From contig CM055095.1 of NCBI GenBank assembly GCA_029204225.1, positions 74,701,501-74,765,500 on the forward strand: a stretch of 64,000 nucleotides of DNA, in the 5' to 3' direction. The position numbers and the translations under genes were made by a program. The notes below the pieces were generated by a model. The model was given only the letters and a program-made list of their open reading frames with translations. It had not been told where the DNA came from and ran no database searches. Positions 1,170 through 61,395 of the stretch are shown one piece after another; the first letter of the stretch is position 1, and every line of letters begins with the position of its first letter. Source of the stretch: Diphasiastrum complanatum. Taxonomy: Eukaryota; Streptophyta; Lycopodiopsida; Lycopodiales; Lycopodiaceae.

Positions 1170-1824
1170 TGTGAAAAATACAGATCCTAAGTGGATCTAA
1201 ACTCCAAGATCATTGGCTTGAATGCTTGCACTCCAAACTACATAAGCTAGGAATTGGCAACACATTCTATGCTACCTAGAATGCAAAGAACTTGATCAAA
1301 AAGCATTTATCACAAATGGAAACTTCCATAAACATCAAGTGCGGCCCAAAATAGCATTATACAGTCCATAATACATCAGCCTATCACTTTTGGAAAGCAC
1401 CTAAGATCATACACAATAGCTTGAAGACAATACACACAACAATGCTCTCAATGGAGGAAGAAACAATGACAATGATCTATTGATCTCAATGAAGCATACA
1501 AAAGGTTTCTCCAACCTGTTCTCCACGACTTCCCTACTATTTATGGATGAGGAAGATGACTCTCTCTCCTCTCTCTAGAAGGTACTTGACCCTAGATATT
1601 CCCTATATAGGAAAAATAGCTAAAAATGGCTTATATGACCAAAATACATCAAAATGGTCTCATTTTGAAGGGTATGAAGTTTGACACTTCATCATACTGA
1701 AAAAATACAGTAAATAAAAACATTGTGGCCTGGTTCACACGTGTGAAACTCCAGAACCAAAACTATTTACAATTTTAGCCAATTTAGGCCTCAAACTAGC
1801 TAGGAAATGTTGACAATTTTCACA
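1170..1824 (-). repeat. 3' LTR of D1
   Basis: Direct repeat of 6945-7599, 655 bp, with short inverted ends TGTGAAAA/TTTTCACA. In element orientation the U3 begins at 1824. The G-box palindrome lies at 1733-1749 and a TATATAG box at about 1602-1612, which would be the promoter. The pol stop codon (1820-1822) lies inside this LTR. Confidence 0.96.
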
Positions 1825-3064
1825 CTCCCTCTTCAACATTGGATGCTAGTTTCAACATAGTCTTTGAGCACATTCCAAGATTAGATCTATGCATTAAATA
1901 TAGGTCCTTTCCCAATGGTTTGGTGAAGATATCAGCCACACACTCCTTTGAAGAGACATGTTGAAGCTCCACCTCTTTGGCAATGACTTGATCTCTCACA
2001 AAATGGTGAGCAATCTCAATGTGCTTGCTCCTTGCATGAAAAACAGGATTGCTTGCCAAGCTTTGGGCTGAAAGGTTATCACAAAGTATGATTGGAGTCT
2101 TCTCTGGTTCCAGCAAGTGAAGATCCAATAACATCCTCTTGATCCAAAGAATCTCCTTGGTGCATGTTGTTAATGCCTTGTACTCGGCTTCGGTGGAAGA
2201 TAGAGAGATAGTTGGTTGCTTCTTTGATAGCCATGAGACCACTCCATCTCCAAGATAGATTGCAAAGGCACTTGTTGACTTCCTATCCATTTGATCACCT
2301 GCAAAATCTGAATCTGAAAATCCACAAAGGTTAGGTGTAGTACCTCCATACAAGATGCCAAAATCTCTAGATCCCGAGATGTATCTAAGTACTCTCTTTC
2401 CTAGCTTCCAATGAGCCTCACTAGGATCTTGCATAAATTGACTTAGTTTACCAACCACAAAGCTTAGATCAGGTCTTGTGATGGTTAACCATATAAGAGA
2501 TCCTATTAGCTTTCTATAGAGAGTAATGTCCTTGAAGGATCTTTCATTACTTCTTGTAGTTAGCTTTACATTTGATTCCATAGGAGTAGAAACAACTTTA
2601 CAATCTTCCATATGAAACCTTTTTAGAATAGAGTTAACATACTTTTCTTGACATATGAATGTAGATTTAGAAGTTCTAATAATCTCTATTCCTAAGATAT
2701 AATGAAGTTTACCAAGATCTTGAATTTCAAACTCTCTTTTGAGTGCCATCTTGATTTCATCTATATCTAGATTGTTACCACCACTTAAGATAATGTCATC
2801 AACATAGATCAAAAGTAAAGTGATATCATTTTCATTCAATCTAAAGTAGAGAGAATGATCATACTCACTCATAACAAAGTTTTGAGAAAGTAAGAAGGAA
2901 TTGAGCTTAGCATACCAACTCCTTGGTGCTTGCTTTAGCCCATACAAACTCTTTTGGAGATAGCACACATGATTAGGCTCATCATGTGAAACATAGCCCT
3001 CGGGTTGCTCCATGTAAATATCTTCTTCAAGATCACCATTCAAGAAGGCATTAGTAACATCCAT
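1820..3064 (-). CDS. D1 pol C-terminal part: RT palm and RNase H
   Basis: 414 codons continuing the frame of 3068-5773 after one in-frame TGA (3068-3070). It holds the copia RT motifs MDVTNAFLNG (start), YGLKQAPRSWY, the catalytic YVDD (about residue 86), the GSLIWLTITRPDLSF region, then RNase H with DSDFAGD, SLSSTEAEYKAL, CDNLSAQ and ARSKHIEIAHHFVRD, and the C-terminal DIFTKPL. Length and motif order are normal for copia. The first Met is not a true start: the preceding codon belongs to the same frame. The stop TGA is provided by the first bases of the LTR (TGTGA). Only the TGA upstream separates this from a full polyprotein. Confidence 0.95.
   Translation of the reverse strand: MDVTNAFLNGDLEEDIYMEQPEGYVSHDEPNHVCYLQKSLYGLKQAPRSWYAKLNSFLLSQNFVMSEYDHSLYFRLNENDITLLLIYVDDIILSGGNNLDIDEIKMALKREFEIQDLGKLHYILGIEIIRTSKSTFICQEKYVNSILKRFHMEDCKVVSTPMESNVKLTTRSNERSFKDITLYRKLIGSLIWLTITRPDLSFVVGKLSQFMQDPSEAHWKLGKRVLRYISGSRDFGILYGGTTPNLCGFSDSDFAGDQMDRKSTSAFAIYLGDGVVSWLSKKQPTISLSSTEAEYKALTTCTKEILWIKRMLLDLHLLEPEKTPIILCDNLSAQSLASNPVFHARSKHIEIAHHFVRDQVIAKEVELQHVSSKECVADIFTKPLGKDLYLMHRSNLGMCSKTMLKLASNVEEGV
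1825..1837 (-). promoter_or_regulatory. Polypurine tract of D1
   Basis: On the - strand the 13 bases before the 3' LTR read TTGAAGAGGGAG-rich purine sequence. This is the expected primer for plus-strand DNA synthesis. It also encodes the last residues of pol (VEEGV), so tract and protein end overlap. Confidence 0.85.
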
Positions 3065-3067
3065 TTG

Positions 3068-5773
3068 TCACATATCCCAATCATAAAGAGTTGCAAGAGA
3101 GATTAGGATTCGAATAGTTACCATCTTTGCCACGGGTGCAAAGGTCTCATCATAGTCAATACCATATTCTTGAGCATACCCCTTTGCCACCAACCTTGCC
3201 TTGTACTTGTTGATTGATCCATCTTGATTTGTCTTGATCTTGAAGATCCACTTACAACCAATTGCCTTCTTGTCCTTTGGAAGCTTTACCAACCTCCATG
3301 TGTTGCTTTTGATGAGTGCTTGATGCTCATGATCCATGGCTTGGATCCATTCCTTCTTTTGAATTGCTTCACCTACACAAGTTGGTTCATCAAAAGAGGT
3401 AAGAAAAGCAAAGTTAGAGTTGTCCACCACTTGCTTTCCTTTTTCATCATAGGTTAGCCTTGATGGCTTAGCCCTTTGCCTTTGAGTCTTCCTTGAAGTT
3501 TGCTTTGGAGTGGCATCTCCATCTTCATCCAAGACATCTTGCACATCATGATGATTAGTAGGCACATCAACATCAACATCAACAACATTGGAAACATTCT
3601 CTTCATGAAAGATGACATCCCTACTTATGACAACTTTCTTTGTAGAAGGAATGTACACTTTGTAAGCCTTGCTTACTTCACTATAGCCAACAAACACACC
3701 CTTCTTTGATGAAGGATCTTCTTTAGTTCTATCATCAAGTGTGATATTGACAAAACATGTACATCCAAAGATCCTACAATGCTTGACACTCGGCCTTCTA
3801 CCATAAAGAACCTCATGAGGAGTTTTACCATCCAAGGAAGCACTTGTCCATCTATTACATAGATAGTTAGCACATGCTAAAGCTTCCCCCCAAAAAGACT
3901 TAGCAAGATTAGCATGTAGTCTCATTGCCTTGGCACATTCACAAAGGGTTCTATTCTTCCTCTCGGCCACTCCATTCTGTTGTGGAGTCCTAGGACTAGA
4001 CATCTCCCTCTTAATCCCATGTGCTATACAAAAGTCTTTGAACCTATTTGAGGTGTATTCCCCTCCATTATCAGATCTTAAGCATTTGATCTTTGTATTG
4101 AATTGGTTTTCCATTTCATTCTTGAACTTGACAAATGCAGCAAACACTTCATCCTTACTTTTAAGAAGATAGATCCAAGTATACCTACTAAAGTCATCAA
4201 TGAAAGTTGCATACATCTTTGCCCCACCATTGCTAGTTGTACTAGAAGAATGAATATCAGAATGCACAAGTTGAAAAGCTTCTTTAGATCTAGAAGTAGA
4301 TCTAGAATAAGCAAGTCTATGAGATTTGGACAAGGCACAATGTTCACAAACACTATTGTTTGCAACAAGACTTTTAGGGAGACCAAGAACAAGCTCTTTC
4401 TTTGCCATTACCTCCAAAGATTTGAAGTTGGGATGGCCCAACCTCTTGTGCCAAACTTCTTGGTTTGTCAATTGCTCCCTAGCCATACATCCTTCATGAT
4501 TAGAGATCACACATGCATCAAGCTTGAAAAGTTTACCATGCCTCCTACCTTGAGCAATCAAGGATCCACATTTACTTATCAAACATGCATCTCCAATGAA
4601 CTCCACATCAAGTCCTTTGTCAATCATTTGACTTACACTAAGCAAATTCTTAGTGATTGAAGGAATGTACAAAACATTTTCAAGATTTGCTTTCCTATTT
4701 GTTGAAAGGGAAATAGGAATAGTGCCTATGCCTTTGATGTCACATTGACCATCATTTGCAGTGTAGATGATGTTACCTTCTCCCTCATAAGACAATAAGG
4801 ATGTAAAGTATTCCTTATGTCTTGTCATGTGAGATGAGGCTCCACTATCAATCCACCAAGGATCATTATCATCTATGTTGGCTAACAAACTTGAAGTCAT
4901 AACAAGTGATTCACATGTGTTATGTTCTTCCTCATCTATTGTAAGATTTCCTTGCCTCTCTCCTTGCTCTCTTTTCTTCTTATAACATTCATTTGCAAAA
5001 TGACCTTTTATCCCACAATAAAAGCACTTGAACTTTGACTTATTGTTCTTAGTAGAAGAGGAAGAGGAAGAGTGATCATCATGATCAAAGTTACCACCTT
5101 TGGACCATTTCCCTTTGCCTTTACCTTTGCCCTTGAATTTGCCTTTTGTGAAGAAAGCCTCTTCACCTCCACCTTGCAAGGATGCACCATCAAGCTTTGA
5201 TTGCAACCTATGTTCTTCAGCCAATAAGATTTCTTGCAAGTCAACCACACTTGGCAAGACTCTTTGAATGGCAAAACTTTGCACAAGGTTAGCATGTTCA
5301 TTTAGCAAACCATTCAACATAACTTGGACTATTTCACCATCTTTTATGTTCTCATCAATGCATGCTAAATCATCACTTAGGGACTTAACTCTCAAGATAA
5401 ATGCATGAGCACTTTCACCCTCTCTTTGCCTACTAGAAAATATTTGTCTCCTTAGGGTCAATACCCTAGATGTGGACTTTGATTCAAAGGGCTTCTTTAA
5501 GGCATTCCATGCCTCACTTGCACTTTGACACTTTCCAACTTCCTTGAGAAGTTCATTTGTAACATTCATTTTAATGATATGAAGAGCCCTTTTGGCCTTC
5601 TTATCAAACCTTTGTTGCTCTTGAAGTGTGAGAGGTCTCTCTTCAATTTCTGCAACTATGTCCATGAGTTCATTCAACTCAAGTAAGGACTCCATCCTCA
5701 CTTTCCAAGTAGAGTAGTTTGATGAACTCAACCTTTCACTAGACTCTAGCATGATCCCACCATTGGAAGCCAT
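3068..5773 (-). CDS. D1 gag-pol N-terminal part: gag, protease, integrase, RT start
   Basis: 901 residues from an ATG at 5771-5773 to a TGA at 3068-3070. Gag (UBN2-like copia gag) spans about 1-245, with a Lys/Gly-rich stretch before a CX2CX4HX4C zinc knuckle (CFYCGIKGHFANEC, about 250-263). The aspartic protease active site DSGAS is at about 309. The integrase HHCC finger starts at WHKRLGH (about 441) with CEHC near 476; the core follows with HSD, DNGGEY and PQQNGVAERKN motifs. The RT begins near 830 (KWIFKIKTNQDG, DETFAPVAKM). The frame stops within RT at LYDWDM-stop-QMDV. The related copy at 24410-24425 has TGG here, so TGA is a Trp to stop change. Otherwise no break is seen. Confidence 0.95.
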   Translation of the reverse strand: MASNGGIMLESSERLSSSNYSTWKVRMESLLELNELMDIVAEIEERPLTLQEQQRFDKKAKRALHIIKMNVTNELLKEVGKCQSASEAWNALKKPFESKSTSRVLTLRRQIFSSRQREGESAHAFILRVKSLSDDLACIDENIKDGEIVQVMLNGLLNEHANLVQSFAIQRVLPSVVDLQEILLAEEHRLQSKLDGASLQGGGEEAFFTKGKFKGKGKGKGKWSKGGNFDHDDHSSSSSSTKNNKSKFKCFYCGIKGHFANECYKKKREQGERQGNLTIDEEEHNTCESLVMTSSLLANIDDNDPWWIDSGASSHMTRHKEYFTSLLSYEGEGNIIYTANDGQCDIKGIGTIPISLSTNRKANLENVLYIPSITKNLLSVSQMIDKGLDVEFIGDACLISKCGSLIAQGRRHGKLFKLDACVISNHEGCMAREQLTNQEVWHKRLGHPNFKSLEVMAKKELVLGLPKSLVANNSVCEHCALSKSHRLAYSRSTSRSKEAFQLVHSDIHSSSTTSNGGAKMYATFIDDFSRYTWIYLLKSKDEVFAAFVKFKNEMENQFNTKIKCLRSDNGGEYTSNRFKDFCIAHGIKREMSSPRTPQQNGVAERKNRTLCECAKAMRLHANLAKSFWGEALACANYLCNRWTSASLDGKTPHEVLYGRRPSVKHCRIFGCTCFVNITLDDRTKEDPSSKKGVFVGYSEVSKAYKVYIPSTKKVVISRDVIFHEENVSNVVDVDVDVPTNHHDVQDVLDEDGDATPKQTSRKTQRQRAKPSRLTYDEKGKQVVDNSNFAFLTSFDEPTCVGEAIQKKEWIQAMDHEHQALIKSNTWRLVKLPKDKKAIGCKWIFKIKTNQDGSINKYKARLVAKGYAQEYGIDYDETFAPVAKMVTIRILISLATLYDWDM

Positions 5774-6932
5774 GATTCTAATGTTTCTTCAACTTTTAGG
5801 TTCTGTCCTAAAGCACTTAGCACTCACTTTTCTCTCAACAAATGATAGATAAAGAGATCTATGAAGATTTAGGACCCTAAAACACTTCTATCTTGAACCT
5901 AGATGGTTTCCAAGCATAGAAAGGAAGATTGAAACACATGCAACACTTTGCACACACTAAGAATGGATTACAAAATCAAACCAACCTGAACACACTCTTG
6001 CTTAAGCTCTCAAACTTTCCAGCAAGTGACCAAATCAAGTTATGGTGTGAAGAGTTACTTGCATTCTTAGAAAATACCCAAAACTAGGATGCCAAGATTA
6101 CCTAGTAATGAACAAACTTGATCAACATATGATCAACACACTAAGATATTGATTCAACCTGTAAAACCACATGTAAACCACACTTCTAAAAGTTTATAAA
6201 CTCCAGCAAGTGATAAATACAAGATTTAGAGGTGAATGAATGAGCACACTTAGTGAATCACAAGACTAGCTTCACTATCTTGTCAAATCTTGGTGTTTAG
6301 ATGTAGATCTAAGATCACTTCACATGAGAATGTTCCTCAACCTGTTAAGAACCTGAAAACACACTTGCATAATGGTTAACACCTTCCAGCAAATGCTCCA
6401 ATCAAATTACATAAGGAGAGTTACTTACATGCTCAACAAAGTACACCAAAATTTATGCCAAATTGATGACAATCTTTACAATATGCTCTTCACAATGGAG
6501 CTTGCAATATGTTCACCCAAAAAAGGGGATCTTTCATCCAAATGGGAGCTTTGCTCAGCCTTTAGGAGAATTACAACTCACTCAAAAGAGCATTTGTCAT
6601 CCACTTAAGGAGAAGTTTCATCCACTTAAGGAGAGTGTTCATCCAAGAATGGAGATTGTCAACAATAGGATTGAAAAGAACATTGTTAGTATTGAATATG
6701 CACAAGCCTCACAATAACAAATGATTAGGTGTTATGATCTGATCCAAAATAGTTTCTTTTCAGCCTCTGATCTTCAATAGACCTGAAATATGCTTTTGAT
6801 CCACAAGTTCAACTCACAAAACAAAGGTTAGTAAGATTTGATCAACAAAGCAATGCAAAATCATGCTAGAACTTGATCAAACATCCAAATATCACCAAAA
6901 ATGGAATACTTACTGTAAATAGAAGCCAACCA
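5774..6932 (-). repeat. D1 untranslated leader with internal tandem repeats
   Basis: This 1.16-kb stretch between primer site and gag ATG has no supported gene. It contains three diverged repeats of about 183 bp, each marked by a CCAGCAA(G/A)TG core at 6019, 6203 and 6386 (+ coordinates), and a short tandem repeat of about 21 bp around 6595-6660 (TTCATCCACTTAAGGAGA units). The same arrangement recurs in D4 at 20750-21720. Open frames here (e.g. 6372-6717) are on the antisense strand and are not supported. Confidence 0.75.
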
Positions 6933-6944
6933 GCTCTGATACCA
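6933..6944 (-). promoter_or_regulatory. Primer binding site of D1 (initiator Met-tRNA type)
   Basis: The - strand reads TGGTATCAGAGC directly after the 5' LTR end. This is the standard plant copia primer site, complementary to the 3' end of initiator Met-tRNA. Confidence 0.93.
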
Positions 6945-7599
6945 TGTGAAAAATACAGATCCTAAGTGGATCTAAACTCCAAGATCATTGGCTTGAATGC
7001 TTGCACTCCAAACTACATAAGCTAGGAATTGGCAACACATTCTATGCTACCTAGAATGCAAAGAACTTGATCAAAAAGCATTTATCACAAATGGAAACTT
7101 CCATAAACATCAAGTGCGGCCCAAAATAGCATTATACAGTCCATAATACATCAGCCTATCACTTTTGGAAAGCACCTAAGATCATACACAATAGCTTGAA
7201 GACAATACACACAACAATGCTCTCAATGGAGGAAGAAACAATGACAATGATCTATTGATCTCAATGAAGCATACAAAAGGTTTCTCCAACCTGTTCTCCA
7301 CGACTTCCCTACTATTTATGGATGAGGAAGATGACTCTCTCTCCTCTCTCTAGAAGGTACTTGACCCTAGATATTCCCTATATAGGAAAAATAGCTAAAA
7401 ATGGCTTATATGACCAAAATACATCAAAATGGTCTCATTTTGAAGGGTATGAAGTTTGACACTTCATCATACTGAAAAAATACAGTAAATAAAAACATTG
7501 TGGCCTGGTTCACACGTGTGAAACTCCAGAACCAAAACTATTTACAATTTTAGCCAATTTAGGCCTCAAACTAGCTAGGAAATGTTGACAATTTTCACA
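6945..7599 (-). repeat. 5' LTR of D1
   Basis: 655-bp direct repeat of 1170-1824. Element transcription would run leftward from here: G-box palindrome at 7508-7524 and TATATAG box at about 7377-7387. The right flank 7600-7604 (GGCAC) duplicates 1165-1169. Confidence 0.96.
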
Positions 7600-15892: not shown

Positions 15893-17019
15893 GTTTCAAA
15901 TCTTGGTGCATTATTTTGAAAGCATTTGTTGTTGTTCAAAGGAGTGCTTTGTGCATTGAAACAGGTTGAAAGAGAAGATCAAGTCATTGCTACATGGCAA
16001 CCTCAATTGGAGTCATGTTGGAAGCCAATGATAGACTTACCTCAAGTAACTATTCATTGTGGAAAGTGAGGATGGAATCACTTCTTGAGATGAATGATGT
16101 TTTGGATATTGTTGTAGGTTTGGAGGAGAGACCAGCAATACAACAAGATCAACTGAGGTATGATAAGAGGGCCAAGAAGGCTCTACACATGATAAAGATG
16201 AATGTTACCAATGAGCTTCTCAAGGAAGTAGGTAAGTGCATATCATCTTTGGAAGCTTGGGATTCATTGAAGCAGCTTTATGAATCCAAGTATACTTCTA
16301 GAGTGTTACTCTAAGAAGTCAAATCTTATCTTGTTGCAAAAGAATGAAGAAAGTCCAAGTACTTTTGTTTTGACGATGAAAGCATTGAATGATGAGTTGG
16401 CTTGCATTGTTGAAAGCATTAAGGAAGGAGAGCTTATTCAAGTGATTCTTAATGGCTTGTTGGATGCTCATGCTAATATTGTTCAAAGTATTGCTATTCA
16501 AAAGAATTTGCCAAGTTTGATGGATCTTCAAGAGATCTTGATCAATGAAGAATATAGGCTTCAAGCAAGAGGTGGATCTACATCGATACTTCAAGATGAT
16601 GCTATGTTCAGAAAGGGCAAATTCAAGGGCAAAGCCAAAAGCAAGTGGTCTAAAGGGCAAGATCAAGTGGATGCTTCTTCAAGTGGCAAAAAGAAGGATA
16701 GATCAAAGCTCAAGTGCTTCTATTGTGACATCAAAGGACACTTTGCAAGTGAGTGCTACAAGAAGAAGAGAGATCAAGGAGACAAGCAAGGTAATCTTAC
16801 TCTTGATGAGGATGGTTTGGATGTGCAAGATGCAAATGACGATGCTTTTGTGATGTCTTCATGTATGCTTGCTAATGATGGAGATCTAGATCCTTGGTGG
16901 ATTGATAGTGGAGCAAGTTCACACATGACCTTTCACAAAGAGTACTTCACTTCTTTGTTGGCATATGGAGATGACAAGAGGGTGATCTACACGGCCAATG
17001 ATGGTGAGTGTGCAATCAA
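15893..17019 (+). pseudogene. copia D2, part 1: leader, gag and protease start
   Basis: Same family as D1, + strand. ATG at 15994 starts MATSIGVMLEANDRLTSSNY. A one-base frameshift near 16306 moves translation to the frame open at 16280-17026. The zinc knuckle CFYCDIKGHFASEC lies at about 16718-16760 and protease DSGASSHMT at 16903-16930. It ends after GECAIK at 17019, where a truncated LTR of D4 begins. Sequence 16814-17019 is repeated at 22545-22745, so the two halves overlap rather than abut. Confidence 0.88.
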
Positions 17020-17166
17020 AGTTTGAGACTTCTTCAACATGAAATATATACTAAAATAAAAGTATCTAGGCCTCTTTCACACGTGTGAAATGTTAGATCC
17101 AAAACTACGTACAAAAATTGCCAATTTAGGCCTCAAACTAGCTAGGAAATGTTGACAATTTTCACA
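17020..17166 (-). repeat. 3' LTR of D4, truncated
   Basis: 147 bp matching 22391-22539, ending TTTTCACA. The outer 500 bp are missing. The break shares AAAG with the host sequence (ATCAAAG versus CTAAAG), a microhomology junction. The G-box palindrome is at 17075-17090. Confidence 0.88.
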
Positions 17167-17179
17167 CTCCCTCTTCAAG

Positions 17180-18343
17180 TTAACTTGCTAGTTTTACAAC
17201 ACTAATTTGCTCCAACCTAAGAATGATCTCCATCATGATAATAGACCTCTTCTCAAGTGTTCTAATATGTACAATATGAAGTACAACATAATTGATATAG
17301 ATAACAGTGTCCATATAGGATGCTTCACTATTTCTTACATCAATTTTACATAGAATGGTGAACATGATACATGTAAAAGAACATAGAATTATAATGAAAG
17401 GATTCCTCCATGTATCCACCTTTGAATTCTCCGTAAAATAGCAGCAAACAAGCTGTAAGTGAAAGTAACTAAGTGTTTGCATGCCTCCTCCACATTCCAC
17501 TATGCCCATAGTGAATGCACCATGTATCTCCATGAATGAACCTCCATCACCACCTTGCCTTTGTAGATCTCCAATCCATGAAAGCCCTTGAGTGAATGAA
17601 TGCCAAAATGATGTGTTCTCTGCTCCATTAGAATGAGCAAAACTTGAACCTGAAATACTTGTAGTATCTCCACAATATTTGCATACAACCCTTGATCCTA
17701 CATTGTCAACAATTTGCCAATTTGCCAACACTAGGATGCTAGATCTTGAACTTTGCTCAAAAGTAAACATATTGACCACTTCAATATCTTTCAAGATTTG
17801 AATGAATACATGTACTTGATCATAAGAACCAGCAATGATAACTATTCCATCTCCAAGATCCAAATGATGCAAAACTATGGAACTAGTTTCATTGAATTTT
17901 GACAATTTCAACACATTGACATGACAATGTTCATACATGAGATTAAACAAATAAGGTAGAGTAAAAGGACACTTCCTTGCTGCTCCAAGAACCTTACTTG
18001 AACCTTCAAGAACCTGTAAAAATAGATTCAAAATGCTTTGCCCATGTGGCTCTCCTTTGATGCTTTTGACTAGCTTCCAATTGCTACTTGCCTCTTGGTG
18101 TTGATGAAGCAATTCAAGATCAACATCTTGATCTTCCAATAAAACATCAAGGACTTTGCATTTATAAACATCTTCATATATGAACCTCTGAAGATACTCC
18201 CTCTCAAACACATGATTAACATCCCATAGGATCTCATCATTGCTTGATTTCAACTTTTCAATATAGTTAGTGAAAACAATGTCACCATCATAAACCAAAA
18301 GATAGATTTCTACAATTCTATCCAACATGAAGTAGAGTATCAA
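17180..18343 (-). CDS. Orphan module ORF of D4 (387 residues), function unknown
   Basis: Uninterrupted 387-codon frame (the first codon is TTG, so the true start lies in the upstream frame or is not used). No recognised domain. Segments shared with F and D5: EDQDVDLELLHQHQ, LVKSIKGE, GSSKVLGAARKC, YLFNLMYEHCHVNVLKLSKF, GGDGGSFMEIHG, GGGMQ, CKIDVRNSEASYMDT. Two Cys pairs (VVCKYCGD) are visible but no complete zinc finger. The C-terminus (VVKLAS) is followed in frame by LEEGV and stop across the polypurine tract, matching the last codons of D1 pol (LKLASNVEEGV). It therefore behaves like a replacement of RT and RNase H in the pol frame. Function is not known. Confidence 0.6.
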   Translation of the reverse strand: MILYFMLDRIVEIYLLVYDGDIVFTNYIEKLKSSNDEILWDVNHVFEREYLQRFIYEDVYKCKVLDVLLEDQDVDLELLHQHQEASSNWKLVKSIKGEPHGQSILNLFLQVLEGSSKVLGAARKCPFTLPYLFNLMYEHCHVNVLKLSKFNETSSIVLHHLDLGDGIVIIAGSYDQVHVFIQILKDIEVVNMFTFEQSSRSSILVLANWQIVDNVGSRVVCKYCGDTTSISGSSFAHSNGAENTSFWHSFTQGLSWIGDLQRQGGDGGSFMEIHGAFTMGIVECGGGMQTLSYFHLQLVCCYFTENSKVDTWRNPFIIILCSFTCIMFTILCKIDVRNSEASYMDTVIYINYVVLHIVHIRTLEKRSIIMMEIILRLEQISVVKLAS

Positions 18344-18887
18344 ACCTAATCAAACTAGCCCATTTGAGATCAAACCAAATCTCAATGAGCTCACCAATGA
18401 GATCTTCCTTGCCTTGGAGAAATTGCCACTTGAGTTGCTCCATGTAGTCTTCTTCATCCAACCTTTTGCCATCTTGATCATGCATGAACACTCCACCACA
18501 ATCATAGCAACCTTTGAGTTGATGAAGAGATGTAAGATCCATGTCTTGAATCTTCCCAAGAGTCACTCTTCCTTTGCCCTTTCCTTCACAAGACTCCCTC
18601 TTAATGATCACACCACAAAAGTTAGCAATCTCCCTCTTGATAGTTGCATCATAAGAAATGGAAGATTCTTGAACATTAGAAGCCATGAAAAGAATACATA
18701 GTTCCTTCAACATAAGAATGATTAAAGTACTTTTTCTTGTCAAACCTGGACTTTTAATCAATGATATAGGTAATGATAATGAACCCTCACTATCATTCAC
18801 AAGAGCATCATTCAAAGTACATTCTACTTTGAACACTTCACATTCATCTCTCCCTTTTGACTTGAGATCTTCCTCACCAAGTCTCAC
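18318..18887 (-). CDS. Orphan frame of D4, middle part (189 residues)
   Basis: Open frame on the same strand, overlapping the ends of both neighbours by a few bases, so the three frames probably derive from one longer coding region broken by frameshifts. Acidic-basic mix with KREIANFCGVIIKRESCEG and LHQLKGCYDCGGVFMHDQDG; the LHQLKG segment resembles LHQHQLKG in D5. The listed start is GTG, not ATG. No known family recognised. Confidence 0.45.
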   Translation of the reverse strand: MRLGEEDLKSKGRDECEVFKVECTLNDALVNDSEGSLSLPISLIKSPGLTRKSTLIILMLKELCILFMASNVQESSISYDATIKREIANFCGVIIKRESCEGKGKGRVTLGKIQDMDLTSLHQLKGCYDCGGVFMHDQDGKRLDEEDYMEQLKWQFLQGKEDLIGELIEIWFDLKWASLIRFDTLLHVG

Positions 18888-19861
18888 GATAGAACCTTTT
18901 GATTACTTTCTTTATGAATACATGTGACACCACTTGTTTCACAAATGACTTTTTTGGACTCATCACATAAAGATACAAAAGAAACTTTTTCTTCAATCAT
19001 GCTCAAAGCACCATCTCTTTCCAAATGAGTAAGTAAGTCATTAGCAATAACCAGTTCCAAAGAAGAGTTTTCATCACCTCCATTGATGAAGTTATCTCTC
19101 TTCTTACCTTTTTCATTTTTGCACTTGCCATGTAGTTCCATTGAAGATCCACCAAGACTTGGAAATCTATGAGTAGAAGAGTTCAAACATGATACTAATT
19201 TAGCACCACCAGACTCCATTTGACTAGTAGGTAGCACTAGTCCATCTTCAAGATCCAATGGATCCAAAACATTGATCATAGATTCACCAAAAGTTGCTAA
19301 GTTAGCACAACAATAACTATCTCCAAGAAGCTCATTAGATCTCAACCTAGATCTAGCATAAGGAAGTTCTTTAGACTTTGCATAAGATCTACCAATCTTA
19401 TTGATACTAGGGATTGACTTTTGAAAGTTGAGAGAACCACCAACATCCATTTCATTCCTCTTGCTAGACATAACAAATGCATCAAGCTTGTAAAGTCTAT
19501 TGCCCATAGCAATCAAGACATATCCCTTAGTAATGAAGCAAACATCCCCAACAAACTTTGTCTTGTACCCTTTTTTGAACATTTGACCAACACTTAGCAA
19601 ATTCCTTGAAAGTGAAGGAATGTAAAGAACACCATCAAGCCTTAAATTCCTATTAGTAGAAAGGCAATTTGGAATTGAGCCAATACCTTTGATCATACAC
19701 TCACCACCATTTGGCATGTGAACGACTTTCTTGGTTCCAACATAAGAGATCAAAGAAGTAAAGAACTCCTTGTGACTAGTCATGTGTGAACTAGATCCAC
19801 TATCTATCCACCATGAATCCTTGTCACTTCCACTTGACATTAGACTTGAAGAACACATCAT
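18884..19861 (-). CDS. D4 protease with integrase remnant and orphan extension
   Basis: Begins within gag-pro: WWIDSGSSSHMT gives the aspartic protease active site (about residues 17-25), followed by the usual copia protease stretch to LLSVGQMFKKG and YKLDAFVMSS. A short KSKELPYARSRLRSNELLG is a worn version of the integrase-finger tail (KSHRLAYSRSTSRSKE in D1). After it the sequence changes to orphan module: FGESMINVLDPLDLEDGLVL, PTSQMESGGAKLVS and GGSSMELHG. The first two segments have counterparts in D5 at 60960-61070. 325 codons, no internal stop. Confidence 0.65.
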   Translation of the reverse strand: MMCSSSLMSSGSDKDSWWIDSGSSSHMTSHKEFFTSLISYVGTKKVVHMPNGGECMIKGIGSIPNCLSTNRNLRLDGVLYIPSLSRNLLSVGQMFKKGYKTKFVGDVCFITKGYVLIAMGNRLYKLDAFVMSSKRNEMDVGGSLNFQKSIPSINKIGRSYAKSKELPYARSRLRSNELLGDSYCCANLATFGESMINVLDPLDLEDGLVLPTSQMESGGAKLVSCLNSSTHRFPSLGGSSMELHGKCKNEKGKKRDNFINGGDENSSLELVIANDLLTHLERDGALSMIEEKVSFVSLCDESKKVICETSGVTCIHKESNQKVLS

Positions 19862-20738
19862 GAGATAATCACAAGAATCTAGATCCTCATTAGAAGTACA
19901 AAAGTTGTTTTGTTTGCTACCTTCATTACTTTGCTTCTTATGACATTCATTTGCAAAATGACCTTTTATCCCACAATAAAAGCACTTGAACTTTGACTTG
20001 TCTTTCTTTCTAAAAGAAGTAGAAGAGGAGGAAGAGTGATCATCATGATCCGAGTTACCACCTTTCGACTATTTCCCTTTGCCTTTACCTTTGCCTTTGA
20101 CTTTGCCTTTTGTGAAGAAAGCCTCTTCACCTCCACCTTGCAAGGATCCACCATCAAGCTTTGATTGCAACCTATGTTCTTCAGCCAATAAGATTTCTTG
20201 CAAGTCAACCACACTTGGCAAGACTCTTTGAATGACAAAACTTTGCACAAGGTTAGCATGTTCATCTAGCAAACCATTCAACATAACCTAGACTATTTCA
20301 CCATCTTTTATGTTCTCATCAATACATGCTAGATCATCACTTAAGAACTTAACCCTCAAGACAAATGCATGAGCACTTTCACCCTCTCTTTGCCTACTAG
20401 AAAATATTTTCTTCCTTGGGGTCAATACCCTAGATGTGGACTTTGATTCAAAGAGCTTCTTCAAGGCATTCCATGCCTCACTTGCACTTTGACTAGTACC
20501 AACTTCCTTGAGAAGTTCATTGGTAACATTCATTTTAATGATACGAAGAGCCCTTTTAGCCTTCTTATCAAACCTTTGTTGCTCTTGAACTATGGGTGGT
20601 CTCTCTTCAGTTCCGACAACTATGTCCATGAGTTCATTCAACTCAAGTAAGGATTCCATCCTCACTTTTCAGGTAGAGTAGTTTGATGAACTCAACCTAT
20701 CATTAGTTTCTAACATGATCCCACCATTGGAAGCCATG
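19862..20738 (-). pseudogene. D4 gag, broken by three stops
   Basis: ATG at about 20736. MASNGGIMLE start and about 86% or higher visible identity with D1 gag, including VRMESLLELNELMDIV, NVTNELLKEVG, SSRQREGESAHAF and the zinc knuckle CFYCGIKGHFANEC (about 19945-19990). Nonsense codons replace Trp near 20668 (STWK to ST-stop-K), Gln near 20287 and Trp near 20068. All are explained by C to T or G to A change, typical of decay in methylated transposons. Long pieces remain open (20288-20665, 20069-20284). Confidence 0.9.
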
Positions 20739-21872
20739 AATATAATGATTCTTCAACTTTTAGGCTCTGTCCTAATGCACCTAGCACTCACTTTCCTCTC
20801 AACAAATGATGGATAAGGAGATCTCAGAAGATCTAGGACCCTAAAACACTTCTATCTTGAACCTGGCTGGTTTTCAAACATAGAAAGGAAGATTGAAAAC
20901 ACATGCAACACTTTGCACACACTAAGAATGGATTACAAACTCAAACCAACTTGAACACACTCTTGCTTAAGCTCTCAAACATTCCAGCAAGTGACCAAAT
21001 CAAGTTATGGTGTGAAGAGTTACTTGCATTCTTAGAAAATACAAAAGACTAGGCTGCCAAGAATACCTAGAACTGAACAAACTTGATCAACACACTAAGA
21101 TATTGATTCAACTTGTAAAACCACATGTAAACCACAATTCTAAAAGTTTATAAATCCAGCAAGTGATAAATACAAGCTTTAGAGGTGAATGAAAGAGCAC
21201 ACTTAGTGAATCACAAGACTAGCTTCACTAGCTTGTCAAATCTTGGTGTTTAGATGTAGATCTAAGGTCACTTCACATGAGAATGTTCCTCAACCTATTA
21301 AGAACCTGAAAACTCATTTGCATAATGGTTAAAACCTTCCAGCAAATGCTCCAATCAAATTATATTAGGAGATTTACTTACATGCTCAACAAAGTACACC
21401 AAAATCTATGCAAAAGATTGTTGACAATTTGTTCACCCAAAAGGGGATCTTTCATCGAAGTGGGAGCTTTGCTCAGCCTTTTAGAGAAATACAAAATCAC
21501 TCAAAGAGTATTTGTCATCCACTTAAGGAGAAGGTTCATCCACTTAAGGAGAGTGTTCATCCACAAAGGAGAGTGTTCATCCACAGAAGTGGAGATTGTC
21601 AACAATACATTGAACATAACATTGTTAGTATTGAATATGCACAAGCCTCACAATCAACAAATGATTAGGTGTTATGATCCAATCCAAAATAGCTTCTTCT
21701 CAGACTCTCATCTTCAATAGATCTGAAATATGCTTTGGATCCACAAGTTCAACTCACAAAACAAATGTTAGTAAGATTTGATCAACAATGCAATGCATAA
21801 TCATGCTAGAACTTGATCAAACATCCAAATATCACCATAAATGAAAACTTTACTAAAAATAATATCCAACTA
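20739..21872 (-). repeat. D4 untranslated leader with tandem repeats
   Basis: Counterpart of 5774-6932. CCAGCAA cores at 20984, 21156 and 21339 mark three leader repeats. The 21-bp GTTCATCCACTTAAGGAGA array at about 21510-21600 has an extra unit compared with D1. No gene is supported. Confidence 0.75.
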
Positions 21873-21884
21873 GATCTGATACCA
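21873..21884 (-). promoter_or_regulatory. Primer binding site of D4
   Basis: TGGTATCAGATC on the - strand next to the LTR, one base from the D1 site TGGTATCAGAGC. Confidence 0.85.
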
Positions 21885-22539
21885 TTTGAAAAAAGTGGAT
21901 CTTGAATGGATTCAAACTCCCAAAATACTTGGCTAAGATCTTTGCACAACAAGCTACAAAAGCTAGAAATGGTAAAGCATCCTAATGCTACCTTTGATAC
22001 ACATGAACTTGACAAAGCATTCAAGAGACAAAAGAAACTAATAAAAGGTACTGATGGCAGCCAGAAACAGCAAAATACCAGCCCTACAATAGCACCCTAC
22101 CACTTTTGAAAACCTCTTAAGATCATACACAAAAGCTTGAAGACAATACACAAAGCAATGCTCTCAATGGAGGAAGAAACTGTGACAATGATCTATTGAT
22201 CTCTTTCAACAATACAATAAGTTTCTCCAACCTGTTCTCCACAAATTTCAGACTAATATAGGTGAGAGAGATGACTCTCTCTCCTCTCTCTAGAACTTAG
22301 GACCCAAATTTAGGGCACCAATAGCCTAAAATAGCCAATTTTGGCCTATATGTCCAAATAACATGATTTTGGTGTCATTTCAAAGGTCCTAAAGTTTGAG
22401 ACTTCTTCAACATGAAATATATACTAAAATAAAAGTATCTAGGCCTCTTTCACACGTGTGAAATGCTAGATCCAAAACTATGTACAAAAACTGCCAATTT
22501 AGGCCTCAAACTAACTAGGAAATGTTGACAATTTTCACA
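21885..22539 (-). repeat. 5' LTR of D4
   Basis: 655 bp, same length as D1 LTRs but clearly diverged from them. The outer + strand end reads TTTGAAAA instead of TGTGAAAA. It carries the perfect palindrome TTTCACACGTGTGAAA at 22448-22463. Confidence 0.9.
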
Positions 22540-25075
22540 TATGGTTTGGATGTTCAAGATGCAAATGATGATGCTTTGTAATGTCTTCATGTATGATTGC
22601 TAATGATGGAGATCTATATCCTTGGTGGATTGATAGTGGAGCAATTTCACACATGACTTTTCACAAAGAGTACTTCACTTCTTTGTTAGCATATGGAGAT
22701 GACAAGAGGGTGATCTACACGGCCAATGATGGTGAGTGTGCAATCAAAGGGATTGGCACAATTCCAATTTCTCTCTCTACAAATAGCAATGTTCATTTGG
22801 AGGATGTCTTGTTTATTCCATATATTACCAAGAATTTGCTTAGTGTGAGTCAAATGCTAAGTAAAGGCCTCAAGGTGGAGTTTGATGGAGATGCTTGTAT
22901 GATAAAAAGGAAGGATGTCTTGGTTGGAAAAGGTAAAAGACAAGGGAAGTTGTTCAAACTAGATGCTTGTGTTATTGCTAACCAAGTTGGATGTGTTGCA
23001 AGGGAGCAAATTTCTATTCAAGAGGTTTGGCACAAAAGGATGGGACACCTCAACTTCAAGTCATTGGTGGTAATGGCAAGGAAGAAGGTTGTGATTGGTC
23101 TTCCAAGTTTCTTAAGTGATGTCAAGCATGTTGTGAGTCTTGTGCTTTGTCTAAGTCACATAGACTACCTTATACTAAATCTATTTCTAGATCTACAAAG
23201 CCTTTTCAACTTGTACATTTGGATATTCATGGATTTACTACAATTAGCAATAGTCGATCTAAGATGTATGTAACATTCATTGATGATTTTAATAGATTTT
23301 GTTGGATCTATCTAATAAAGAGCAGGGATGAAGTGTATGATGTCTTTATCAAGTTCAAGAATGCAAGGGAGAACCAATTTTTCACAAGGATCAAGTGCTC
23401 AAGGAGTGACAATGGTGGTGAGTACCTATCTACCAAGTTCAAGGCCTTTTGTGATGAGCATGGGATCAAGAGGGAGTATACAACATCAAGGACCCCACAA
23501 CAAAATGGAGTGGCTGAAAGGAAGAATAGAACTTTATGTGAAAGTGCTAAAGCTATGAGGTTATGTGCTAATCTTGACAAACCATTTTAGGATCAAGCTT
23601 TGTTGTGTGCCAATTTCTTGTGCAATAGGTGGCCGAGTGCTATTTTGGATGAAAGGACACCTTTTGAGATGCTATTCAAGAGGAGGCTGAGTGTCAACTT
23701 TCTAGGAACCTTTGGATGCACATGCTATGTCAACATTACTCTTGAAGATAGGACCAAGGAGGATCTATCTTCAAGAAGAGGTATTTTTTGTTGGATATAG
23801 TGAGGTGAGTAAAGCCTATAAGGTTTACATTCCTTCTACTAACAAAGTGATTGTTGGCAGAGATGTCATCTTTGATGAGGGGAACATTCCAAAAGTGTCT
23901 TCAAGCATGATTGATGGTGGTGTGGATGGATCTAACATTTTTGATGTTGATGGAAAGGATCCTACTTTGGATGGTGATGGTGATGGACCTTCATCAAGTC
24001 AAAAGCCAAGGAGAACATCAAGGGAAAGACAAAGGCCTTCAAGGCTCACATATGATCAAAAGGGTAAGCAAGTATTTTTTGGAAGTTACGTTGCTTTCCT
24101 AACATCTTTGGATGACCCTACAAGTGTAGATCAAGCAAGGAAAGAAGAGGAGTGGATCCAAGCAATGGATCTTTAGTATCAAGCTCTTATGAAGAATGGA
24201 ACCTGGAGATTGGTGGAGTTATCTAAGGACAAGAAAGCTATTGGATGCAAATGGATCTTCAAGGTGAAGACAAACCAAGATGGATCTATCAACAAGTACA
24301 AGGCAAGGTTAATGGAAAAAGGATATGCTCAACAACAAGGGATTGAGACCTTTGCACCCATGGCAAAGATGTAAGGAGTCGAGTCATCATTTCACTTGCT
24401 ACACTTTATGGATGGGATCTATGGAAATGGACATTTCAAATGAATTCTTGAATGGTGATCTTGAGGAGGAAGTGTATATGGAGCAAGCCGAGAGCTACAT
24501 TTGATCAACAAAGCCAAATCATGTGTGTCTACTACAAAAGAGCTTGTATGGCCTTAAGCAGGCACCAAGGAGTTGGTATGCTAAGCTTAACACTTTTTTA
24601 CTCTCTCAAGGCTTTGTTATGAGTGAGTATGATCATTCACTTTATTATAGGTTTGCTGGAAATGATGTTACCATCTTGCTAATCTATGTGGATGATTTCA
24701 TCTTGAGTGGTGGAGACAATCAAGATGTGGAGGATATCAAGAGTGCTCTTAAGAAGGAGTTTGAGGTGCATGATCTTGGTAATTTGCATTACATTTTGGG
24801 AATAGAAATCATTAGATCTTCTCAATCTACTTTCATTTTTCAAGAGAAGTATACTAATTATATTCTACAAAGATTTCATATGGTAGATGCAAAAGCTAGT
24901 GATACGCCTATGGAGTCTCATGTAAAGCTAACTATAAGAGGTAATGAAAGATCCTTCGAGGACATTACTCTCTATAGGAAGCTAGTTGGTTCATGTTAAA
25001 TTAGTCCAAGTAAATTCATGGCTATGCCTAGGGAAACTCTTTGGAAAGCTGCAAAGAGAAATCTTCACTACATTA
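22540..25075 (+). pseudogene. copia D2, part 2: protease, integrase and RT (broken)
   Basis: Protease with DSGAIS (the Ser of DSGASS changed) near 22636. HHCC finger WHKRMGHLNFKSL; integrase core with LDIHGF, DDFNRFCW, DNGGEYLSTKF and PQQNGVAERKN. Stop at 23588 (TAG for Trp), frameshifts near 23150 and 23790, TAG near 24174, RT start KWIFKVKTNQDG, frameshift at 24375-24425 and a TGA near 24503, then YGLKQAPRSWY, YVDD (about 24687) and LGIEIIRS. It ends at 25075 against a truncated family-E LTR. At the position of D1's internal TGA this copy has TGG. Confidence 0.9.
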
Positions 25076-30771: not shown

Positions 30772-32022
30772 CTCTTAGCATAGTTTTTGCCAATAGAACT
30801 TTGATCCATCATAAGAATGATCTTCTTCCTAAGAATAGATCTCCTTTCAATGATCATGTAATGCTCAAAATAAAAACAACCATAATTTATAGAGAATAGT
30901 GTCCACTTGGGATGCTTCACTATTTCTTACATCAATTTTACATGTAAAAATGTGACTAGAACATGAAGAATCAAATAGAATGTAAGTGAGATGATTCCAC
31001 CATGCTTCCAACTCTGAACTCTCTGAAAAAATACAGCAAACAAACAATAAATGTGAGTGATCAACTTTTGCTTGCATGTCTCCTCCTCCTTTGTCCTTTG
31101 TTGCCTTGTATCCACCATGATACTCCATGAATGAGCCTCCATCTTCATCTTGTCTCAAGATACCATCATACCTTGATGACTTGACCATGAATGAGTGACA
31201 TAATGAACCTCCAATAGCTTCATTTCCATCAGCAAAATCAGCCAAGAATGCTAGTACAAATCCAACATCAAAACAATGCTCACCAATGTAGCTAGTTTTA
31301 CCATATCTTGACAATTTACACACATCAACATGAAATTGCTCAAACATGAGATAGAACAAGTAAAGTAAACTTGAACAACACTTCCTTGCTGCTCCTTTGA
31401 CCTTACTTGAGTCTTCAATATTTTTCAAAAACAGATCCATAACACCTTTGCCAATTACCTCTCCTTTGATGCTCTTGACTAGCTCCAAATTGCCAGCTTC
31501 CCTTTTGACTAGTTGAAGCGCTTTGAGATCAACCTCTTGATCTTCAACTTGACCATCAAAGTCATTGAACAAAATTTGCTTTCCAGATCTATTATTTGAT
31601 TTTACAGCAAGATAACATCCATCCACTTGCATAGCTCCATGTACACAAGAAGATCCTCCAAAAGATGTTCCACTCTTCATAAGAGATCGATACTCAAGAT
31701 CCAATGCTTGGATCCACTCCTCTTCTTTCCTTGCTTGATCTGCACTTGTAGGCTCATCCAAAGAGGTTAGGAAAGCAACATAATTTCCAGAAACTATTTG
31801 ATTACCCTTTTGATCATATGTGAGCCTTGAAGGTACTTGTCTTTCTTTCGATGTTCTCCTTGGCTTTTGACTTGATGAAGGTCCATCATCACCACCATCC
31901 AAAGTAGGATCCTTCTCATCAACATCAATAATGTTAGATCCATCCACTTTACCATCAATCATGCTTGAAGACACCTTTGGAATGTTTCTCTCATAAAAAA
32001 AGACATCTCTACCAACAATCAC
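30772..32022 (-). CDS. F pol linker fused to the orphan module
   Basis: 385-codon open frame 30865-32022, with module homology continuing to about 30772. The first 119 residues are the copia integrase-RT linker (VSSSMIDG, SSSQKPRRTSKERQ, SRLTYDQKG, AFLTSLDEPTSADQ, EEEWIQALD, LMKSGT). From SSCVHGAMQVDG the sequence is orphan module and aligns with D5 and D4: NDFDGQVEDQEVDLKALQ, LELVKSIKGE, EDSSKVKGAARKC, YLFYLMFEQFHVDV, DEDGGSFMEYHG, CKIDVRNSEASQVDT. In-frame joining to pol and absence of stops suggest a fusion protein. Function unknown. Confidence 0.6.
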
Positions 32023-32175
32023 TTTGTTAGTAGAAGGAATGTAAACCTTGTACGCTTACTCACCTCACTATATCCAACAAAAAAACCTCTTCTTGAAGAT
32101 GGATCCTCCTTGGTCCTATCATCAAGAGTAATGTTGACATAGCATGTGCATCCAAAGGTTCTTATAAAGTTGACA
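32023..32175 (-). pseudogene. F integrase C-terminal fragment
   Basis: RTFGCTCYVNITLDDRTKEDPSS and FVGYSEVSK are the end of the copia integrase region, with a one-base loss near 32055 that shifts it out of frame with the linker downstream. Integrase core is absent upstream. Confidence 0.8.
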
Positions 32176-39605: not shown

Positions 39606-40989
<1,384 letters not shown>

Positions 40990-60507: not shown

Positions 60508-61395
60508 CTCCCTCTTCAAATTTGCTTGCTAGTTTTGCAACACTACTTTGATATAACTTAAGAATGATTTCCATATTAAGGATAGATCTCCTCTCAATGA
60601 TCCTAATATGTACAAAACAATAAACTTCATAATTGATATAGATAATAGTGTCCATATTGGATGTTTTCACTATTTCTTACATCAATTTTACATTTCAAGA
60701 TGAAACTAGTACATAAAGAATAACATAGAATGGGAATTGAATGATTCCTCCATGTTCCCGCCTTTAAAATCTCTGTAAAACAGCAGCAAACATGTAACAA
60801 ATGAAAGTGAGGAATGCTTGCTTGCATGTCTTCTCCATATTTCACCTCTTGTGAGGTGTATGTGTTGAAATCCACCATGAATGAGCCTCCATTGCCTTCT
60901 TGCCATGAAGAACTATCAAGCCTTCGAAACACATGAGTAAAAGAGTACAACAATTATGCTAAGCTAGCTCCATAAGACTCCACATAACTAGTAGGCAACA
61001 CTAGTCCTTCTTCAAGATCCATTGGATACAAAAAAATGATCATAGATTCACCAAATTTTGACAATTTCCACTCATTGACATAACATAGCTCTTAGATGAG
61101 TAAATTAGGTTTGAACAAGACTTCCTTGCTGCTCCTTTTCCTTTACTTGAGTCTTCAATAACCTGCAAAAACATATCCTTAGTGCCTTGGCCATTTTGAC
61201 TCTTCTTGACTAGCTTCAAATTGCCACCTTTCAATTGGTGTTGATGAAGCACATTAAGATCAACCTCTTGATCTTCCTTTTGAACATCAAAATCATTGAC
61301 CAAAACCTGTTTTCTAGAACGATAAATGACATCCATTTCATGAACACACATCCATATGCATAACATCATCCACACAAGAAGATGTACTAAACCAT
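60508..61395 (-). pseudogene. Orphan module of D5, frameshifted
   Basis: Pieces in two or more frames. 61330 leftward: MDVIYRSRKQVLVNDFDVQK, EDQEVDLNVLHQHQLKGGNL, KLVKKS, IEDSSKGKGAARKSCSN. About 61070: KFGESMIIF, MDLEEGLVLPTSYVESYGAS. 60953-60627: EGNGGSFMVDF, EDMQASIPHFHLLHVCCCF, GTWRNHS, CKIDVRNSE, where an extra base shifts the frame. The end next to the tract reads VAKLASKFEEGV and stop, like D1 and D4. It is the most decayed of the three module copies. Confidence 0.65.

Follow-up and report, generated by a model that had tools for sequence, protein, structure and literature searches.

Non-autonomous long terminal repeat (LTR) retrotransposons are usually regarded as passengers, with nothing to prevent the decay of their coding sequence. 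A 64,000-nucleotide stretch of the Diphasiastrum complanatum genome (contig CM055095.1, positions 74,701,501–74,765,500; hereafter the window) contains a decayed element, D4, that carries an orphan coding module near its 3' end. Self-BLAST and tblastn find the same module in two further window elements, D5 and F, and it is also present in a young genomic family, Y, of which D4 is a decayed relative. The module frame has been kept open, and its amino acid sequence, as far as the tests described here reach, appears hardly constrained. Judged by their sequences, these elements belong to the copia-type LTR retrotransposons and are non-autonomous; D1 is their autonomous-type partner, and they are akin to TR-GAG elements, to the Gypsy-type Dasheng/RIRE2 elements of rice and to recombinant Onsen progeny.

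TR-GAG elements, one of which has been reported to transpose in Arabidopsis ddm1, are described in the available text as gag-encoding and non-autonomous with a close autonomous relative in the same genome, as here (PMC8704663). They consist of a single GAG frame, whereas Y elements retain protease (PR), integrase (IN) and the reverse transcriptase (RT) N-terminus followed in frame by the orphan module, and so fall outside the TR-GAG definition. Dasheng and RIRE2 likewise combine a non-autonomous element with a putative autonomous partner, chimeras and recent amplification, but no in-frame orphan module is described in the accessible part of that report (PMC5473765). Retand elements, as far as the available text goes, resemble the present ones as plant LTR elements, in part non-autonomous, in which additional coding sequence with no assigned function recurs; they are Gypsy elements, however, and their extra frames are antisense, lie between pol and the 3' LTR and mostly carry a TRP28 domain (PMC11963269). 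The module differs from these and from env-like frames in being sense, in frame, a replacement of part of pol and without an accepted domain. In Arabidopsis Onsen, the source excerpt describes recombination among members of one family, whereas here the 5' half of one element is fused to an RT-replacing module and the product has grown into a large family. In tomato, TARE1 is also a mutant copia-type family with recent large amplification, but is defined by an altered LTR end, with no replaced RT module in the text available (PMC3701649). Among the titles and opening lines of abstracts searched, no shared orphan in-frame replacement module was recognised, which is not proof of absence, nor was an in-frame orphan replacement common to several families in which the frame is kept while the sequence drifts.

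An earlier note on this DNA, made from the letters alone, had claimed that D4 keeps gag and protease and lacks the integrase core, RT and RNase H, and Pfam and tblastn agree. Pol_BBD is the only accepted Pfam domain in the three D4 frames; the CCHC knuckle falls just below its cut-off (20.4 versus 20.8), and the 389- and 194-codon frames yield a single sub-threshold match (E 0.11). When the PR-IN-RT piece of Y is aligned to D4 by tblastn, only its first 185 residues are found, and no integrase core, RT or RNase H. The three overlapping sense frames that the note listed do exist, on the minus strand, with 389, 194 and 394 codons (its 325-codon frame is the post-protease part of the last), but they are pieces of one frame in a relative, L006, where the 194- and 389-codon pieces (starts at 33730442 and 33731018, 576 apart) lie in a single frame with one stop within the second piece. 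The 194-codon frame has 150 scored matches in the genome. The D4 module frame has no stop in 389 codons, against ~25 expected from its dinucleotide content, and is 92% identical in amino acids to the Y module over 386 codons. Its end is in frame with the terminus of pol exactly as the note had read it (VVKLAS-stop-LEEGV-stop in D4, LKLASNVEEGV-stop in D1). That the module sits as a pol replacement holds for D4, but D5-family elements have lost only the RT core to it, and RNase H similarity follows. D4 is flanked by a 210-bp direct duplication (16812–17021 and 22541–22749; 95.7% identical) of a plus-strand gag-protease element, and its 3' LTR is truncated at the same point as this duplication.

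The genome search (1.74 Gb, 5176 contigs, best-scoring matches listed only) with the 389-codon frame gave 106 scored matches among 16357 candidates, mostly at 92% identity, and a stop lies inside the match in only six of the 106. An open frame of at least 1300 aa surrounds the module in 69 of the 105 matches tallied for frame length (105 of the 106), and in 62 of these 105 it measures exactly 1347 aa. Sixteen Y loci were picked for frames of at least 1329 aa. Fourteen have an LTR pair longer than 600 bp, and the two LTRs are at least 99.1% identical in 12 of these, the exceptions being L015 (97.9%) and L017 (88.0%); 5-bp target duplications at TG...CA ends are present at nine of the 16 loci and were not found by the same test at the other seven. 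PR, IN, the RT N-terminus and the module share one frame of ~1347 aa. In one Y copy, L016, the frame runs through gag (with a CCHC knuckle), protease, integrase and RT as far as FLNGDLEEDIYMEQ; the module comes next, and the frame closes about a dozen nucleotides upstream of the 3' LTR. Pfam places Pol_BBD, gag_pre-integrs, rve, SH3_retrovirus and RVT_2 in that order on the Y piece P0002. Past the YMEQ motif, similarity to D1 is lost, and Y has neither a complete RT with YVDD nor an RNase H, as an autonomous element would. Two pairs of Y modules lie exactly 5868 bp apart (C12:1664619/1670487 and C19:19455989/19461857), as in tandem elements sharing one LTR.

The likely partner is D1, whose gene order, gag-PR-IN-RT-RNase H (RNase H read by eye), fits Ty1/copia and whose window copy has a single in-frame stop, in RT. 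All 101 listed matches to its RT/RNase H protein are 100% identical (at least 101 copies, on contigs C1–C4), and 73 of these 101 lie in frames of at least 1300 aa. D1 and Y share 98% DNA identity over 4600 bp. The Y copy L016, in which the mosaic was mapped, and D1 are 95–100% alike in R/U5 and leader and distinct in U3, as expected of a partner pair. The first ~250 bp of the L016 LTR are 94% like D4 and 73% like D1; from there to the YMEQ junction it is 95–100% D1; and past YMEQ one mixed bin of 80% is followed by 94–97% identity to D4 as far as the polypurine tract (PPT). Because both LTRs take their U3 from the 3' end of the RNA, a single template switch involving a D1 RNA and a D4-like RNA would produce this mosaic, although the event itself is our inference. 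Since the young insertions lack a complete RT, Y, D4, D5 and F would depend for their copying on RT/RNase H that D1-type elements provide in trans, and the long-frame D1-type copies are the likely helper.

The module recurs, as the earlier note had stated: three diverged families or more carry it, each with 5' parts drawn from a different backbone. It exists in many copies, in frame with gag-PR(-IN), with a 3' border (VVKLA...) common to F and Y/D4. For the D5 family 30 loci were extracted from 141 matches; here the module follows in frame after integrase and the first RT residues, and all 30 loci show RNase H similarity downstream, with no RT core between integrase and RNase H; the final ~80 nt of the module are out of frame in the window copy. 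In F (L055, L058, L059) it follows integrase or its remnants and ends in KLA(S/T)KVEEGV. By eye, F and D5 share the 5' border, and 295 codons align without gaps. Because module dS between Y and D5 (0.50) is far below integrase dS (1.55), the D5 lineage probably acquired its module after the Y and D5 backbones split. One D5-type match (C21:31074816-31075619) lies in an open frame of 4423 aa, far exceeding any single-element frame seen, and at L056 (C8:32639000-32640900) an F-type module tail shares one 390-codon frame with sequence that by eye resembles a LINE endonuclease.

Selection on the module was assessed in one genome and a few diverged lineages. Family F was represented by L055, L058 and L059 (F1–F3), kept for their open frames from six loci fetched of 150 matches, and D5 by the long-frame locus L026. 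Three loci were left out of the pairs used for the ratio of nonsynonymous to synonymous substitution rates (dN/dS, w): L056 (fused to unrelated sequence), L060 (shorter frame) and L057 (frameshifts, two stops in one piece), the last serving only as 'G' in the slow-block comparison below. Choosing long frames in Y, F and D5 may hide recent stops on terminal branches, but not those expected on the branches between families.

Evidence that the frame is kept and the amino acids drift is as follows. First, across three families 28–32% apart there is no stop in 254–295 aligned codons, where 10–15 are expected, and for every inter-family pair none of 1000 simulations was stop-free. Expected stops (none observed) and w are 14.5 and 0.86 for F1–D5 (295 ungapped codons, 31% different), 13.2 and 0.93 for F2–D5, 12.7 and 0.74 for F3–D5, 12.1 and 0.71 for F1–Y, 11.0 and 0.73 for F2–Y, 10.8 and 0.74 for F2–D4, and 10.6 and 0.80 for Y–D5 (254 codons). 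Second, neutral simulations without stops give median w of 0.82–0.89, with 95% ranges within 0.57–1.29, and integrase gives 0.15 for Y–D5, at the same loci as the module, and 0.42 for F–Y. Third, changes at codon positions 1, 2 and 3 are flat in the module (95, 95 and 84 for F1–D5) and concentrated at position 3 in integrase (100, 95 and 234 for Y–D5). A codon model with kappa fixed at 2 is best for the module at w=0.8 (log-likelihood -3249.6, against -3250.8 at 1.0 and -3373.5 at 0.15), and for integrase 0.15 is the best of five fixed values (four-row alignment, E24 dropped for stops). Replacements in F–D5 and F–Y are no more conservative than neutral. Coding in another frame or on the other strand is ruled out by 10–39 stops in plus frames 2 and 3 of the region and 19–41 in the minus frames.

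These results divide the expectation, set out in the earlier note, of a maintained protein with dN/dS well below 1: the reading frame is maintained, but inter-family w is 0.71–0.93, only the close pair Y–D4 is lower, and the amino acid sequence is hardly constrained within the reach of the tests. Nor does neutrality, which that note named as a refutation, apply in its plain form. The values of w do lie inside the neutral-without-stops range, but plain neutrality is refuted because each comparison should contain 10–15 stops and has none.

We give about even odds to reading the module as a C-terminal filler that is translated, tolerates sequence change and has spread among non-autonomous copia elements through recombination. 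Somewhat short of an even chance, in our estimate, is the further proposal that the uninterrupted frame is selected and its content is not, the module being a translated spacer spread by template switching in RNAs that must be read through in cis. The module is fused in frame behind gag-PR or gag-PR-IN-RT(N-terminus) and takes the place of the RT core, with or without RNase H. A template switch between two co-packaged RNAs would have joined a D1-like segment, from R/U5 to RT motif A, to a D4-like segment of module, PPT and U3, and the module-bearing RNAs would be copied by D1-type RT/RNase H in trans. By the statistics above, the long inter-family branches stay clear of stops and frameshifts while amino acids drift near-neutrally. 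The selected trait, the weakest step, would be uninterrupted translation of the RNA in cis and no particular protein activity. A premature stop might leave the RNA with an extended untranslated stretch at its 3' end and expose it to nonsense-mediated decay, or might alter ribosome transit or the polyprotein size required for the RNA's own packaging; translation to the end probably matters, through RNA stability or packaging in cis.

Several observations weigh against this reading. The D5 module frame stops at the junction to the out-of-frame RNase H in six of eight loci examined, and in the window copy ~570 nt separate its end from the LTR, which weakens the simple decay-avoidance version. In 28 D5 loci (L028 and L038, with scores equal to L027 and L037, were left out here and in the within-family test) RNase H is as poor in stops (5 of 4271 codons) as the module (17 of 8586); nearly stop-free yet out of frame, it has either been joined on only recently or is accessible through a frame shift. 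The base composition of the module is coding-like (GC content 0.45–0.46 at codon position 1, 0.30–0.35 at position 2). For Y–D4, w is 0.46 (0.25–0.86), a value as low being reached in 7.6–9.2% of neutral simulations, and the lack of stops in that pair is only mildly unexpected (P 0.08–0.10). Amino acid identity of the module is slightly above neutral (reached by 0.7–9.5% of simulations), and Y–D5 replacements are slightly conservative (2.8–4.8%). Slow blocks recur between pairs (rho 0.57, p 0.007; rho 0.68, p 0.0007), which are not fully independent as F and G are closer to each other, and the module may be constrained at the nucleotide level. Within the D5 family, a low-power test on 28 loci (integrase data for 26) separates module and integrase little: the ratio of nonsynonymous to synonymous polymorphism is 0.84 and 0.83 for singletons, and among shared changes 1.03 and 0.90. 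Constraint on integrase may itself have weakened in the non-autonomous D5 lineage, with w of 2.35 for D5–E24b (219 codons, one stop) and 0.39 for D5–E24 (129 codons).

The main rival is that the module encodes a fast-evolving accessory protein, directed for example against host silencing or the RT of another element and acting once released by protease, in which diversifying and purifying selection average near 1. We regard this as rather unlikely, although it would account for a frame open over 254–295 codons with few indels (none in F1–D5 and F2–D5), for the coding-like composition, for invariant residues such as the GGS and DVRNSE-like blocks, for the slightly fewer changes at position 3 than at positions 1 and 2 in F–D5 and Y–D5, and for the low Y–D4 ratio. 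However, no 40-codon block in Y–D5 or F2–D5 shows clearly stronger conservation at positions 1 and 2 than at position 3, the slowness of the slow half of the module extends to all three positions (87, 97 and 74), F–D5 and F–Y replacements are not conservative, and neither an accepted domain nor, by eye, a conserved hydrophobic segment is present. As the earlier note had stated, no known domain is recognised: searches of Pfam (ten window frames, several phases), NCBIfam (E up to 0.1), PDB sequences and IMG/VR (163 pattern matches, none confirmed) gave no accepted match. TMEM18, zf-BED, MxiC_C and DUF4315 appeared at E 0.06–0.13, under the Pfam cut-off, and an Rfam group II intron at E 0.096, under its gathering score. 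PDB entry 4eog ('putative uncharacterized protein') matched the Y module alone at E 0.0036 and was treated as chance because two alignment profiles did not repeat it (best E 0.3 or worse).

A cis-acting RNA signal for packaging, dimerisation or 3' processing, with the open frame secondary, is improbable in our judgement. The recurrent slow nucleotide blocks would fit it, as would a conserved imperfect hairpin of ~55 nt in the 3' part of the module (alignment A3, columns 939–994; z -3.35 to -4.49 in five variants) and changes on both sides in 21 of the 157 pairs predicted in the consensus. However, folds at least as good occur in other 60-nt windows of the module, and the hairpin was picked after the fact; covariation contributes only -2.2 of -80.9 kcal/mol to the consensus fold, and an RNA signal by itself leaves the lack of stops and frameshifts unexplained. 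It is hardly to be expected either that separate, recent events captured already diverged members of one host gene family, the divergence having arisen in the host genes. No source is known for the module, its composition is coding-like, and the D5 backbone has diverged from Y far more in integrase than the module has, all of which would suit captures; but F and Y/D4 share the 3' module/pol junction, so that one capture is probable for these two, they are 28–30% different without a stop, and integrase dS for F1–Y (0.58) agrees with module dS (0.51). Host copies may still exist beyond the best-scoring genome matches that were listed. That the module is a degenerate RT/RNase H or a known pol or env-like domain is largely refuted and very improbable: at 427 aa in Y it is close in length to the segment that it replaces (415 aa in D1) and 'LLVYDGDIVFTN' by eye superficially resembles the RT YVDD motif, but this stretch is missing from the D5 and F modules, no module frame matches RVT_2 or RNase H, and the module profile aligns with only the last 18 pol residues of D1 RT/RNase H (probability 2.2%), so that it is not the 3' region of the autonomous partner, an outcome that the earlier note had named as a refutation.

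Positions of the elements, frames and module copies within the window are collected below. Apart from these, a segment of ~560 bp at 39606–40169 is 70% identical to its own reverse complement.

Elements, frames and module copies in the window
Feature	Position	Strand	Basis
D4, decayed non-autonomous Ty1/copia-type element	17019..22539	-	self-BLAST; Y-D4 alignments
D4 5' LTR	22539-21887	-	self-BLAST, Y-D4 alignments
D4 3' LTR, fragment of ~150 bp only (LTR start)	17168-17019	-	self-BLAST, Y-D4 alignments
D4 copy of the orphan module (Y-type), running from about 'EEDYMEQLKWQ' to the stop after VVKLAS	17183..18460	-	92% aa identity to Y module
D4 module main frame, 389 codons (module 5' end falls in frame 18318-18902)	17180-18349	-	ORF
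D4 194-codon frame upstream of module, no recognised domain	18318..18902	-	ORF; Pfam
D4 394-codon frame: CCHC-like knuckle, protease region (Pol_BBD), then orphan sequence	18884..20068	-	ORF; Pfam
Second module fragment in D4, F-like	19142-19291	-	self-BLAST
D1, gag-PR-IN-RT-RNase H; identical LTRs 7599-6945 and 1824-1170	1170..7599	-	self-BLAST, ORFs, tblastn
D5 copy of the module, sharing frame 30865-32055 with the integrase C-terminus/RT N-terminus	30786..31668	-	self-BLAST, tblastn
RNase H after D5 module	30774-30204	-	sequence similarity
Module in F, frameshifts and stops in window copy	60524..61383	-	self-BLAST, tblastn

The window contains both parent kinds of the recombination that would have launched a large young family. 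With amino acid drift but no build-up of stops or frameshifts over ~30% divergence, the proposed need for in-cis translation of the copied RNAs is directly testable. If the proposal is true, propagation of a non-autonomous RNA mobilised in trans would still depend on its being translated right through.

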